This document shows positions 4,885-33,460 of a stretch of 33,460 nucleotides of DNA, in pieces; the first letter of the stretch is position 1; every line of letters begins with the position of its first letter. The translations under genes and the position numbers were made by a program. The stretch is from Candidatus Micrarchaeota archaeon (GTDB lineage Archaea > Micrarchaeota > Micrarchaeia > Anstonellales > JAGGXE01): contig JAGGXE010000024.1 of assembly GCA_021163225.1 (NCBI GenBank), forward strand, positions 1 through 33,460. Direction: 5' to 3'. Under the pieces are notes generated by a model, which had not been told where the DNA came from, did not search any database, and saw nothing but the letters and a program-made list of their open reading frames with translations.

Positions 4885-7800
4885 TTACCAAGGTATAGGT
4901 ATATTGAGCCAACCTCTAACGTACCTATCTCCTTCTAGAGTTGTTCCAATAGACGCACCAAATGACCCGCCATTGAAAATATTAAACTCACAGCCAAAAA
5001 CGATTCTGTTAGTGGGTGACGTTTGGATCCAAAAATCATGAAGAGAGAACCTTGCCTGAATACCTGCATATACAATCCCAATTTTTTTATCTACTGACAC
5101 ATGAGTATACCGATAACGGTCATACTCTGTTTTTTGCAAGATCAAATCTTTGGTTGCGAAAATCCCCGTATCTACGTAAGATGGAGAGTTCTTCTGTAAC
5201 CACTTTTGTAGATTTCCCTCCAGATTTAAGGATAGCTTGAGGGAACCTCCGTCCATGGTGAAGCTTCTTTTTATTTTTCCATGGGGCATATCCGCTCCAC
5301 TACCTACAGGTACAGGATGGCTTGGAGGATGGTGATGCGCTGTTGAGCCTCTAAATTCCTTATTTAATTTGTTCACAAATTTGTTCCATGGAATCTTTCC
5401 CGAGGGTGTCCATTTCCACACCCTTAAAAATGGAACTGACCACTGGGATGTGCGAAGGTTTATCTTAAGTATCTCAATGTTATTAATACTAAACGTTTTT
5501 ATTTGGTCTTTATTATACTCTGCCACATCTCTCAAGAGATTCTCTCTTAAGTTAAGGTATTCTTTATAGTAATAGTCATTCAGATTTGCATATCCATAAT
5601 TTCCTCCAACTGGCATCCCACCGTACATCTCTTCTCCATAAACAACCAACTCTTCGCCCACATACAGGGGCATATCCGCACTTAGTACTTCTGGTTGATT
5701 TCCTGTGTAGTCAACCAACCCGATAGGATTGTTATACGCATAGACATACCTATTAAGTCCGCTTGGTAACGGATCAGGCGTGATAAACCTACCTATCTCT
5801 GAATCGTAATATCTCATGCCAAAATACTGCAGTCCAGAATCGTCACGCTCATGATTAACAAATTCTCTTCTATTGTTGACTGTATCATTTATGTCTATAT
5901 TCAGATTAACAGGATTACCAAAGGCATCATAATCTGCAGACCAAACAACTTTTCTGTTTCTGTCTAATATAAACCTAGGAGTGCGATAATCAGAATAATA
6001 ATAGTAAATCTTTGGATGAGTAACAAACCTATGTTGACCGATAAAATAAGTATTATAGTCTGCACGCGCAAGAATACGGTCATGTCCCTCTATGTATAGT
6101 GAATCCTGTTCTATAACGGTGCTTGGAGAAGTTGAAGGGATTGAAGACAGTGTATGATGATGTATAGGGACGATAGGAATTGACATAATGAAATATCCTT
6201 TACCGGGTTCCACTTCATTAATGGGCACATAGACATATCTTCTTAGTTTTGGCTCGTAGTGCCAGAACAGGATCTGTTTATCACTGTTGGCGGTAATAAG
6301 ATTTATCAACTGTTCATAGTTCCTTATCCCTATCAGAACAAACTTTCCAGGAGGCAATTTAAATCCAGTATCAGACGTGGTCTTACCGGTATCAAAGGCT
6401 ACGTCCATGCTTTTTTTCATGTAAACGAATACACAGTCAGTTTTATTAGGCCCTCTAGAATCATCCATTTTAAAATATTTGTTTGTGTCTGGGTCATATC
6501 CAAATGCACATATATATGAATCTTTTGGTAGCGATTTATAGACGTCATAAGATATCATGTTCCAACCAGGGTATAAGTCAATATACCTTTTTCCTATGTC
6601 TGCCAACGATTCTATTTTTTTCTTTGTCCTTTCATATACAATATTCCCGGCTGGATCCCTAAAATAATACACCACTATCTTGCTGTTATTTTCATCTTCT
6701 ATTATCTTTGCAACCCTATCCCAGTTAGAATCATAATAATAAGTTTCGTTTCCAAAAGCTCCATTGATATTCTTAACTCTACCCAATCCGTCATACGAAA
6801 TCTCATAAACTTTAAAGACATCACGAACTCTAGGCGAAAAAATACTATCAAAACCCGACGATTCTAAGATACTGTGTTGTTCACGGAACCGATCTTCTTT
6901 ACTATTTTTCTTGGGACCACGTCCCTGGAAATGTTTCCTATATGTAGAAGTATATTTCGATAACAAACGGCCTATGTTATCATATTGGTAGTAATTAATA
7001 GTGTTCATCTCCCCGCCAGAACTTACAATTACATACTTTAAGCGTACCGAATTTGATGGAGATGGTAGCTGATAATCAAAATAATATCTTAATCGAACCG
7101 AATCTCCATTCTCCACGATACGATTGTCTAAATCATCATATTCATATGTAACATTACCATAGTATCCTGCAGTAATATCATTTACTCTTATTAATCTGCC
7201 AACAGCATCGTAATTAAAACTAACTATCGGCCTCCATTCAGATCTTCTTGCGGACAGATCGACACTGGAGGTTGGCACCGGCTCACTTATTGCAATTATA
7301 TTTCCTAATGGGTCGTAATGGTAGCGTCTACTAAAGTACGTGGTATCTGGAGTCCTGACAGTTATCTGAGTGATAAAGTTGTCGTTGTCATACTGATAGT
7401 GAGATTCAACATTGTTTCCGTATTCTATTGTTGTAACCCTACCACGATCGTCTATATCAAAATCTGCAATTTTATAATCAGAAAGATACACACGCGTAAG
7501 TTCACCGTGGTTATTGTACATATATCTTATAGGCTTTCCATTGATTTTCTCTTCAGAAAGAAGGTTATGGTCATAGGTATATTTCACACTCAAAGACTCT
7601 GAATCCTCGGGTGAATCGAGCGTAATTGTGACCGAATAATCTGATATCCTACCTTTTTTGTCATAATTATAATTCTGTTTGACATTTACTGAATGTTTAG
7701 AACAAAGCCGCCCAACACCGTTACGACATCTATCATAGATGTTCTCAAGTACGATAGAACCTGAGCGGTTTTTAACGCTTGTCAGACGATTTATCCAGTC

Positions 7801-20428: not shown

Positions 20429-20560
20429 ATGTATGTGTGCGGGAAATGTGGTAGAACGATAAAATCTCTGGATGAACATTTTGTCAGATGCCCTTACTGC
20501 GGTCACAGAATTATCTATAAAGTCCGTGCACCCGTAGCCCGTGAGATATCAACCGATTAA
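20429..20560 (+). CDS. rpoP: DNA-directed RNA polymerase subunit P (Rpo12)
   Basis: A 43-aa zinc-ribbon subunit of RNA polymerase, homologous to eukaryotic Rpb12. It reads MYVCGKCGRTIKSLDEHF, then RCPYCGHRIIYKVRAP. Cys4, Cys7, Cys21 and Cys24 are the zinc ligands, and the RCPYCG-R-I-x-K-x-R core is diagnostic. GGTGATG lies 4 nt before the ATG, and a stop codon immediately precedes that ATG in frame. It follows rpl37ae by 57 nt and ends the first half of the superoperon. Confidence 0.94.
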   Translation: MYVCGKCGRTIKSLDEHFVRCPYCGHRIIYKVRAPVAREISTD

Positions 20561-20832: not shown

Positions 20833-21501
20833 ATGCTTTACATCACTACATCGCGTAATCCCGATAAAAGAATGATAGAGTTGGGTCGTCTTCTCGGTTC
20901 GGTAATCCCGTATTCGGTGTTCAGAAGACGCGGTGTAAAACCTTTTGAACGTGTTGTGCGTGACGCACGTCGTAGGGGAATGGACAGGATACTGTTCATA
21001 ACAAAAGAGAACAACAGACTCCTTTTCAGAATCATTCGGATACCGCCGGCAGAACCACGTCTCAGTTCTTTGATATCCGTCCATGATGTTTATTCCTATG
21101 GTGCGCCGCGGTCGGATGAACAGGGTAAACCGGATATCGATGTTATCGGAGGATGGGACGACATAGGTTTGTATTATGTTGACCGTGTCGACCCGGATGA
21201 TGTTGGTGAATGGATACGTATCCGTAGTGAGATGCGCGCGCGGGCGCGCATTGAGCGCGCCACGCGCGCGCCCGATCTTCATACAGATAAATACGGGTTC
21301 GGTTGCGGAGGCACCGATAACATCGTGTTTTTCAGATGCGATAATGAAGCAAGTACTCTGTTCGGTTATGAAGATAGCGTATTTAAGATGTTCGAAGATG
21401 CGGATATTGAGATACGTTTGAGAAAGTCAGATGATATTCAGGTACTGGGTATAAAGGCGTACGGTCATTCGATACGTATATCTATGAAACCGTACCAGTA
21501 G
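20833..21501 (+). CDS. Brix domain ribosome biogenesis protein (Imp4-like)
   Basis: A 222-aa archaeal Brix-domain protein, related to eukaryotic Imp4/Rpf, expected to act in rRNA assembly. The N-terminal MLYITTSRNPDKRMIELGRL and DRILFITKENN are typical; the C-terminal part (about 145-222) is less recognisable. Residues 134-147 are an odd RARARIERATRAP segment encoded by an all-GC hairpin, which looks like an in-frame insertion in a linker. The start follows a TATA box by 22-32 nt. Family placement is from the N-terminal half and from its place next to pcc1 and pfdB. Confidence 0.85.
   Translation: MLYITTSRNPDKRMIELGRLLGSVIPYSVFRRRGVKPFERVVRDARRRGMDRILFITKENNRLLFRIIRIPPAEPRLSSLISVHDVYSYGAPRSDEQGKPDIDVIGGWDDIGLYYVDRVDPDDVGEWIRIRSEMRARARIERATRAPDLHTDKYGFGCGGTDNIVFFRCDNEASTLFGYEDSVFKMFEDADIEIRLRKSDDIQVLGIKAYGHSIRISMKPYQ
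21234..21271. repeat. All-GC 16-bp hairpin inside the Brix gene
   Basis: The left arm 21234-21249 and right arm 21255-21271 pair over 16 base pairs, every one G-C, with one bulged A at 21262 and a 5-nt loop (ATTGA). Much of it is alternating G and C. It is entirely within coding sequence and encodes alternating arginine and alanine. Confidence 0.95.
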
Positions 21502-30151: not shown

Positions 30152-30187
30152 GAGCGACGATCAAACCGACCGGTTTCTACCGGGTAA
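30152..30187 (-). repeat. 23S pre-rRNA processing stem, 3' arm
   Basis: This arm pairs with 33054-33090 in the minus-strand transcript: 26 continuous base pairs (some G-U), then a short mismatch zone and about 9 more pairs that include the terminal helix of the mature rRNA. Such stems bracketing an rRNA are the substrate of the archaeal splicing endonuclease. Confidence 0.85.
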
Positions 30188-33062
30188 TCGGCTTTAGTAA
30201 CGGCCGGCTGAACGCCTCGGTTGCCCTTGGCGCTTACACCGCCGTCCTATCAAAGCCGTCTGCTACGGCCGCCTACACCGCCTAGTCTTGAGGGAGGCTT
30301 CGAGCTTAGATGCTTTCAGCTCTTATCCTCTGGGGCGTAGCTGCCCGGCTATGCGTTGGCACAACCGGTACACCAGAGGCCCCGGCCCCCTGTTCCTCTC
30401 GTACTGAGGGGACCTTCCTCTCAGGCGGTAGCGCTCCCAGTAGATACTACCGTACTGTCTCGCAACGTACTGAACCCAGCTCACGTAGGACTTTGATGGA
30501 TGAACAACCCAACCCTTGGAGGCTGCTGCACCTCCAGGATGACCTGAGCCGACAGCGATGTACCAAACCGCGAGGTCGATGGGTACTCTCGCCCGCGACA
30601 AGTCGGTTACCCCCGGGGTAGCTTGTCTGACAGATGGGACCCTCATCAATAGGGTACCCATGTTCGCTAAGCCCGGCTTTCGCCTCTGCGTCCGATTTTG
30701 TTAGGGACGCAGTCAGGCCGGCATTTGTCTTTGACCCTCTACGGAGGATTTCTGACCCTCCTGAGCCGACCTTTGGGCACCCTTGTTTCCTTATCGAGGG
30801 TGTACCGCCCCAGCCAAACTACCCACCTGCCGCTGTCCCCTTTCGGGTGAGTGATACAGAAACCGTTGAGTGGTGTTCCATTGGCGCCTAGCTGCCAGCC
30901 GGGACTGACAGCATAACAGCTCCCACTTACGCTCTGCAACGGTTCCCATATCACAACGACAGGCTGTAGTAAAGCTCCACGGGGTCTTCGTTTCCCACTG
31001 GGAGTCCTCGGCATATTCACCGAGTAGTGAGTTCACCAGGTCCGACCCAGGGACAGTGGGGGAGTCGTTACGCCGTTCATGCAAGCCGCCAATTAAGCGG
31101 CGAGGTATTACGCTACCTTAAGAGGGTCAGAGTTACCCCCGCTCTTCACCGGCGCTTCGCCCGGTTGGAACCGGGTTTCACGTACCGGCAGTGAGCAGGC
31201 GTCGGCCACCGTACTAGGCCTTACGGCTTTGCGGTGACCTGTGTTTTTGGTAAACAGTCGCTCCCCCCTTGTCACTGCGACCTGCAGTCGCCTTGCGACA
31301 ACCGCAGGCACCCCTTATACCGAAGGTACGGGGCTAATTTGCCGAATTCCCTTGGGTCGGTTATCCTGATACGCCTGGGCCTCTTCAGCCAGCAGCACCT
31401 GTACTGGTTCTAGGTACGGTCGTCCGGAATCGGACAGGTTCCCTTTTCACGGATCCCAGGCCTCAGCCGATTTTTCCCAGGTTTATACTGCTTCTCCTCG
31501 TTACAAGTCTCCGCAGTATTATCCTGGTTAAACGGGGTCTCCCCCGCTCGGCCTAGCCCGAGATGTCAGGAACCTGTCTTGCGTTGCCGCATCTATCCGG
31601 ACGGGGCCGGAATATTAACCGGCTTCCCTTTCGTGCGGAGGTGATTAGCCCCGCACTTAGGACCGCCTTACTCTTGGCTGACGAACATGGCCAAGAAACC
31701 CGGGTGCTATCCGGCGCCCAGGATTCCCACCTGGGTACGCTGTTACTAACACCAGGATATTCATACCAGCCCGGTCCACACGACCTCACGGCCGTGCTTC
31801 TGCCCGGACCGGTCGCCCCCCTACCGGATCACCTCTCACAGAGAGGTGCCCTGAGGTCTCGGTACCCGGCTTAAGCCCCGGGCATTTTCGGAGTCTGCCC
31901 TCTCGGCTGGTCCGCTGTTACGCGTTGTTTAAAGGATGGCTGCTTCTAAGCCTACCTTCCAGCTGTCTAAGAGAGGGGACTCCTTTCGGATTAACACTTA
32001 GCCGGGATTTAGGGACCTTAACCTCAGTCCTGGTCGTTCCCATAATGGCCAGCCGGCTTACCCGACTTGAGCCCGACTCCTGCCTTCTACGGTGAGCACG
32101 CATTCGGAGTTTGACAGGAGGGCGAGGGATTTCTCCCCCGTGACCTCCAATCAGTGCTCTACCGCGTGCTCCACCTCCAGCAGGGCTGTGCTGAGACACA
32201 TTTCGGGGGGAACCCGCTATCGCCGCGCTCGACTGGACTTTCACCCCTAGACGCGGGTCACCCGAGGGGAATAGACCACCACCGGTTGACGGCTTCCATC
32301 GGCCGGTAGGCCGACTTCACCGTGCCCGCGCCTAGATCGCAGCGGCTTCGGGTCTGACGACAGTGACTAATCCCCCTTATCGGAGGACGCCCCTGACCCA
32401 CAAGGGGCTGCGGGCTGTTGCTTTCGCTCCGGCTTTCGCCTCGCCACTGCCGTCAACTCCCTGGCCCTTGCTTCGAGAAGGACGATGCGACGCCGGTAAC
32501 CGGTTCTCGCTCCCGGCCTCTCGGCCGGTCGCTTCGAACCGGCTATCCTTTCACGCCGCATCAAACTGTCACCGCCCAGTTTCAGGTTCTTTTAACACCC
32601 CTTTCGGGGTCCTTTTCAGCTTTCGCTCACGCTACTGGTTCGCTATCGGTCTGGGGTTATGTTTAGGGTTGGGAGTTGATTCTCCCATATTCCGACGCAC
32701 GATCCAGTGCGCCGTACTCTTCCGCCACCCTTCCTGACAGACTTCGCCTACGGGGCTATCACCCTCTATGGCACAGCTTTCCAGCTGTTTCGGCTCGTCT
32801 GTCAGGATAGGTAACGGTGGCCCCACATCCCGACTCACGTTACCGTGAGCGGTTCAAGACGCCCTGTCCGGGGTTCAGTCGCCCTTACTACCCGGATCGC
32901 TATTGCTTTCTCTTCCTGCCGGTACTAGGATGTTTCGATTCCCGGCGTAACGCGGGGATCCCAGGATCAAAGGATGCATGCTCCTACCCTGGGCTTATCG
33001 CAGCTTGCCACGCCCGCGTCTACCCCAGCCGAGCCATCCACTGGGCGGTTTGGTTACCCAGA
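30180..33062 (-). rRNA. 23S ribosomal RNA
   Basis: About 2.88 kb of GC-rich sequence whose minus strand is a complete archaeal large-subunit rRNA. The 5' end has CCCAGTGGATGGCTCGGCTG and GGCAAGCTGCGATAAGCCC; the 3' part has the sarcin-ricin region AGTACGAGAGGAAC and ends with AACCGAGGCGTTCAGCCGGC. The ends are approximate (within about 15 nt), set by the terminal helix GGGTAA/TTACCC. No group I or archaeal bulge-helix-bulge intron is obvious from the length. All open frames in this stretch are shadows. No 16S, tRNA-Ala or 5S gene adjoins it. Confidence 0.97.
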
Positions 33063-33090
33063 TGGAAACCGATCAGTTTGATCGCCGCTC
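33054..33090 (-). repeat. 23S pre-rRNA processing stem, 5' arm
   Basis: Complement of 30152-30187. In the transcript it begins GAGCGGCGATCAAACTGATC and ends GGGTAA at the mature 5' end. The G-U pairs against the 3' arm show compensatory-type variation, which supports a real RNA stem. Confidence 0.85.
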
Positions 33091-33215: not shown

Positions 33216-33311
33216 CATCACCTCTGCGCTCTGCGATTGTGAATAAATCCCGAAATTTTTCTTAAAAACAGGATTTTAGTTGTGTTAATATGTTAATATT
33301 TGTATTTTATC

Positions 33312-33343
33312 TTTTGTTATGTGAGGTATAATACATAACAAAA
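33312..33343. repeat. Perfect 11-nt inverted repeat at the transposase 3' end
   Basis: TTTTGTTATGT (33312-33322) and ACATAACAAAA (33333-33343) are exact inverted copies with a 10-nt spacer. The transposase stop codon lies in the left copy. It may be a terminator hairpin or part of the element's end. Confidence 0.8.
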
Positions 33344-33460
33344 AATAAAATTAGAGAGGAGAATCAACATACCAAGCACATACCTGACCACATTCTCAAA
33401 ATTCCTACCCCTTACCATCTCACCTAATATCATCTTAAGTCTAGAGAAATATGTTTCTAC
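33317..33460 (-). CDS. Probable IS transposase, C-terminal fragment cut by the window edge
   Basis: An open frame enters from the right edge and ends at the TAA at 33319-33317, giving 47 residues: VETYFSRLKMILGEMVRGRN, followed by a hydrophobic end. The pattern V-E-x-x-F-S-R-L-K, then R-x-F-E-N, is typical of the last helix of DDE-type IS transposases, where the E is the final catalytic acid. The family cannot be fixed from this part. The stop codon lies within an 11-nt inverted repeat. Confidence 0.65.
   Translation of the reverse strand, partial: VETYFSRLKMILGEMVRGRNFENVVRYVLGMLILLSNFIFCYVLYLT

Follow-up and report, generated by a model that had tools for sequence, protein, structure and literature searches.

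Near-perfect GC-rich hairpins in the coding sequence of a Micrarchaeota genome and their possible origin by fold-back template switching

The window analysed here is the whole stretch of 33,460 nucleotides given above, and the feature under study is a hairpin that lies inside one of its protein-coding frames. The frame is open and remains intact across the hairpin, where its translation reads ..RSEMRARARIERATRAPDLH.. in the one-letter code. The features are as follows.

20833-21501, + strand: host open reading frame, 222 aa, provisionally Brix-like (residues 2-72 weakly match 2cxh, E 0.0055)
21227-21282, + strand: weaker outer extension of the hairpin (predicted fold)
21234-21249, + strand: 5' arm, GCGCGCGCGGGCGCGC (inspection and RNA/DNA folding)
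21250-21254, + strand: loop ATTGA with a C-G closing pair (inspection and RNA/DNA folding)
21255-21271, + strand: 3' arm, GCGCGCCACGCGCGCGC, with a bulged A at 21262 (inspection and RNA/DNA folding)

The hairpin at 21234-21271 was borne out as originally described, with 16 pairs that are all G-C, the ATTGA loop and a single bulged A; the 3' arm reads GCGCGCC-A-CGCGCGCGC, with A21262 as the bulge. In the outer extension, TGAGAT on the 5' side of the 5' arm is predicted to pair with ATCTTCA from 21275, leaving 21272-21274 unpaired, and these outer pairs are weak and may have arisen by chance. The structure had been regarded as non-random and extraordinary, and the folding energies support this. 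The RNA fold of 21225-21285 reaches -41.3 kcal/mol compared to a shuffle mean of -26.2 (z -5.2), the DNA fold of the same interval reaches -28.4 (z -5.3), and in both cases none of 200 shuffles was as good. The window has 8 copies of the motif GCGCGC compared to 1.7 expected, and six of the eight lie inside the hairpin. Because of its bulge, the hairpin went undetected in a repeat search run at default settings. Archaeal LSU rRNA was the only match in an Rfam search of the window, and the hairpin has no curated family there.

The name of the host gene is weaker than the original prediction had claimed. The frame has no match in Pfam, and phmmer gives a marginal match to 2cxh, an archaeal Brix structure. 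The neighbours, on the other hand, fit a Brix gene: an Rrp42-like exosome subunit, L37ae, Pcc1 and a prefoldin-like protein. The protein has a detectable match in only 4 of 58 relatives of the same order, all in the N-terminal half, and since these matches reach only about the first 96 residues, the Arg/Ala segment encoded by the hairpin is not comparable across relatives. A single-sequence AlphaFold model of the protein has a pLDDT of 37, with values below 50 at that segment. Two other observations concern the surroundings. Between L37ae and the Brix-like gene, a small unlisted frame at 20431-20560 encodes a CxxC..CxxC peptide (CGKCGRTI..RCPYCGHRIIYKVRAP), probably the RpoP/Rpb12 subunit of RNA polymerase. 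The 23S rRNA gene occupies 30176-33065 on the minus strand, and about 240 bases past its 5' end lies an AT-rich 19-bp inverted repeat with a 10-nt loop (33304-33351), which may be an rRNA processing stem.

The source genome (880 kb in 63 contigs, 44% GC) contains many further hairpins of this kind. About 54% of it was sampled in stretches, and pattern searches covered the whole. The stretches for the scan were chosen without prior inspection and were searched with a hairpin aligner at a score of at least 30, with mirror repeats as a control. The scan found 19 GC-rich hairpins in 475 kb, a count that includes the pre-selected one of the window and falls to 18 without it. Ten additional hairpins came from stretches that were targeted and so form a biased sample. 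The whole-genome pattern search for adjacent GCGCGC motifs had already pointed to several GC hairpins besides that of the window, each differing in sequence. No mirror repeat reached the same score in the 269 kb in which this control was run.

In open reading frames of at least 100 codons (430 kb) there were 17 hairpins. Synonymous shuffling across whole genes yielded 0-1, and shuffling confined to blocks of 20 codons yielded 0-4. Near-perfect inverted repeats with short spacers are therefore in excess over both composition and codon controls, as would be expected of a template-switch class. Perfect stems of 6-10 bp were close to shuffle levels, whereas stems of at least 11 bp with a 3-nt loop numbered 9 compared to 0 in the shuffle. 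This marks the hairpins as a class of their own rather than the extreme of a continuum. Dozens of near-perfect GC-rich coding hairpins are present in this assembly, and we hold the existence of the class with high confidence.

We found nothing in sequence, position, gene class or spacing that the members share. Their lengths range from 23 to 63 nt and are mostly not multiples of three, the arms measure 10-28 nt, and 28 of 29 have loops of 3-5 nt. Eleven of the 15 triloops are of the form C-GNA-G, compared to 5 of 101 chance stems of 6-8 bp (p 6e-9), and the mini-hairpin that d(C-GNA-G) forms in DNA is of exceptional stability. The motif is found on either strand (6 coding, 5 template), which argues for a feature at the DNA level and against one at the mRNA level. 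The encoded residues are 22% Ala and 24% Arg, compared to 6-7% each outside (46% and 13% for the two together), and CGC accounts for 63% of Arg codons inside hairpins and 8% outside. The hairpin of the window fits this class except for its ATTGA loop and the one bulge in its stem. Palindromes of another type are found on contig C17, where two near-identical AT-rich sequences of 60 nt (ACTTAAGTTAAATTGCGATTTG.., L044:4405-4464 and 5537-5596) lie about 1.1 kb apart; they are the only copies in a search of the genome itself.

The genomes used for comparison belong to the same order as the source and none to its own family. Sampled stretches of these genomes gave about 2 GC hairpins in 867 kb (p 3e-7 for the comparison with the source genome). 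They comprise one borderline hairpin in about 24 same-order genomes (567 kb) and exactly one in 306 kb of the nearest relative, G002. Sampling around homologous genes in relatives gave 3 hairpins in 693 kb, and sampling around topoisomerase VI-A gave 2 in 317 kb from 80 records, although these two sets overlap each other and partly the 567-kb set. The isolated GC hairpins of other Micrarchaeota genomes (L103, L127/L351) include GCATCAGCATCGTCC-aaa-GGACGATGTCTGATGC.

Several hairpins lie in conserved genes for which relatives or solved structures can be aligned. The strong ones include the following.

L072:3041-3078: coding hairpin in PorB
L044:3937-3963: coding hairpin in topoisomerase VI-A
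L087:815-1049: two coding hairpins in the archaeal phosphoglycerate mutase gene (apgM)

In topoisomerase VI-A, GDH, PolX and the second apgM site, the hairpin falls on homologous residues without a gap, and for topoisomerase VI-A this holds also against structure 2zbk. Alignments of PorB and QueA have gaps of 1-3 residues near the hairpin site, and the first apgM hairpin and that of ScpA lie within gap-prone regions. By these alignments, the hairpins replace homologous codons rather than being inserted at most of the testable sites. In other genes the peptide has changed: in apgM the consensus AACIAGGALYK becomes CACVAGAPLYK, with the change in the outer 3' arm. Topoisomerase VI-A is the clearest case of replacement, since the motif QASRGARRL is almost unchanged throughout the order (QASRGCRRL) and is written here as CAGGCGTCGCGC-GGA-GCGCGACGCCTG. 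The same site in G002 reads CAAGCGTCGCG-TGGAG-CGCGACGCTTG. One pair is CAG..CTG here and CAA..TTG there and is paired in both, so that two synonymous changes have exchanged a G-C pair for an A-T pair with the stem retained, which is a compensatory change. The other relatives examined have no stem at this site.

We also compared the two arms with relatives, on the expectation that a derived arm would be the less conserved one. Lhr (identity 0.59 in the 5' arm and 0.16 in the 3' arm) and MnmA (0.31 and 0.12) fit this pattern and in GDH the better-conserved arm is the 3' one, with relatives that are not close enough to represent real ancestors. Identity is low in both arms of the ScpA hairpin and the first apgM hairpin, and neither these nor the second apgM hairpin have a clear donor arm by this measure. 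A loop inversion is found in the overlapping contigs C42 and C45, which carry the same hairpin with the loop as CA in one and TG in the other and are nearly identical in the remainder. The C42 copy stops 23 bases past the hairpin, and with the contig end so near, the inversion could be an assembly error.

The reading that we prefer is that repeated fold-back template switching, also described as quasipalindrome correction, makes and keeps this class of coding hairpins, and we give it a probability of roughly 0.6. It draws on the excess, the coding location, the diversity of sequence, the substitution of codons, the loop bias, the compensatory change and the one loop inversion; the polymerase mechanism behind the hairpins is what we infer from them. 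The process would start from a short quasi-palindrome of G and C that arose by chance, has a tight loop, preferably the very stable C-GNA-G, and folds in single-stranded DNA at the replication fork. The polymerase would copy one arm in place of the true template and then return, and the second arm would thereby become the perfect complement of the first. Later mismatches would be erased by the same copying, and stems would stay perfect. Because variants that wreck the protein would be lost, the survivors would be found where the peptide tolerates them, and these peptides would often be rich in Ala and Arg since the codons GCG and CGC complement each other. Simple copying does not account for the GC content of the two arms, which is far above that of the gene. 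From the strong preference for GC and for the CGC codon we would guess at a further repair step that favours GC, or at stringent filtering for stable stems. Some of the hairpins, those of FtsZ (GGGTGTG), a helicase (RRGRAGR) and RuBisCO (GGGVHGHP), may be only conserved peptides with GC-rich codons. For the hairpin of the window, template switching would be an origin deduced from the class and not from its own gene, and our confidence in a function for this particular hairpin is low.

A bolder version, which we consider tentative, is that the lineage has an unusual state of replication or repair, in which C-GNA-G mini-hairpins would continually seed G-C-biased conversion from arm to arm and rewrite conserved proteins. 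Coding genes would then steadily gain GC hairpins and patches rich in Ala and Arg. As a candidate cause of the hairpins, loss of the hairpin nuclease Rad50 was considered and rejected. A match to the Rad50 zinc hook is present at C28:13287, and in the stretches sampled, relatives without a detected hook are also without comparable hairpins.

Selection of the hairpins as functional DNA or mRNA structures, with codons tuned to keep them, seems unlikely to us. Such structures might be binding or nicking sites, replication signals, or elements that control translation or decay. The perfect stems and the preferred loop type would fit, as would the compensatory synonymous change in topoisomerase VI-A, given that the sample of G002 contains only that hairpin. 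However, the hairpins have nothing in common in sequence, position, gene class or spacing, the same loop type is found on both strands, and the hairpins are missing from nearly all relatives. Changes at conserved protein motifs, such as GGALYK to GAPLYK, also carry a cost. The earlier suggestion that the hairpin affects translation of the Brix-pcc1-pfdB message locally is possible as a secondary matter, although it leaves unexplained both the hairpins in many unrelated genes and a loop type that recurs on the coding strand as well as on the template strand.

Two further explanations are improbable in our estimation. The first is chance, as helices rich in Ala and Arg would be self-complementary without further cause when GCG and CGC are the codons used. 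The high share of these residues inside hairpins is in its favour, and the 0-4 hairpins obtained by local shuffling mean that codon clustering explains a small part. The observed 17 nevertheless exceed either shuffle, hairpins are practically missing from those sampled relatives whose GC is higher (47-57%), stems continue into mixed sequence (for example GAGCAAACGGCTGC and AGCGAGGTTGCGC), and the loop bias is left unexplained.

The second is that the hairpins are artificial, created by the metagenome assembly or by fold-back chimeras among the library molecules. The assembly does invite this concern with its 63 contigs, several of which overlap by exactly 127 bases and point to an assembly graph of k=127, and with contig ends at or just beside hairpins (L043, L079, L021, L083). 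Against this, the hairpins do not interrupt the reading frames, which have homologous sequence to their left and right, the arms are far shorter than 127 bases, and G002, a separate assembly, has one hairpin in common. Contig ends at hairpins suggest instead that the hairpins are hard to sequence and thus physically present. Apart from this, the contig ends of C20/C37 (L047:6123-7090 and L082:1-1014), C1/C26 and C42/C45/C16 overlap at 90-99% identity, which suggests strain mixtures or recent duplications.

Palindromic elements of Rickettsia are related insertions that lie within open reading frames. The original prediction had raised a small mobile palindrome of this sort fixed in frame, and we regard it as very improbable: the scatter of the hairpins through coding sequence and the gaps in or near PorB, QueA, ScpA and the first apgM hairpin would suit it, but the arm of the window hairpin is absent elsewhere in the genome within 2 mismatches except as its own complement, no two hairpins have a sequence in common, most lengths are not divisible by three, and the aligned topoisomerase VI-A, GDH, PolX and second apgM sites have homologous codons and no insertion.

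Fold-back template switching has counterparts in three known systems. Mitochondrial genes of Nematomorpha contain many perfect inverted repeats, scattered in conserved protein-coding sequence with both arms coding; perfectness is binary, conversion by template switching has been proposed, and the abundance is unexplained (PMC6649704, which also mentions the Rickettsia elements). In the archaeal genome, perfect repeats are likewise found in conserved genes with both arms translated and, in several genes, without insertion, although the stem in the window is bulged. In contrast to those mitochondrial repeats, whose arms reach 284 bp, the hairpins here belong to a cellular archaeal genome, have arms of 10-28 nt and none of hundreds of bp, and are GC-rich with loops of 3-5 nt and the C-GNA-G bias. 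In genes of Saccharomyces cerevisiae, template switching within coding DNA has two outcomes on record, homogenisation of arms and inversion of the spacer (PMC8604942). The archaeal case would resemble these events in homogenised short inverted repeats, in its one possible spacer inversion and in clustered amino-acid changes in coding DNA. The yeast events are single ones placed on strain trees, whereas here there is an accumulated genome-wide load of GC-rich stems without a tree. Template switching also creates and maintains RNA hairpins, and stable loops have been proposed to prime switching within a strand (PMC8794818). Perfect stems, compensatory changes and, with the one possible case here, loop inversions are common to those hairpins and ours, but they belong to rRNA and microRNA genes and ours to protein genes with DNA-type triloops.

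The literature that we found describes frequent coding palindromes from hairworm mitochondria, and template switching in the coding sequence of yeast as sporadic. Short-read assemblies may fragment or miss genes that bear such hairpins. If our reading is true, a cellular archaeal genome with dozens of these hairpins and a loop signature of DNA folding would make fold-back priming directly testable, and DNA structure would be able to reshape conserved proteins.
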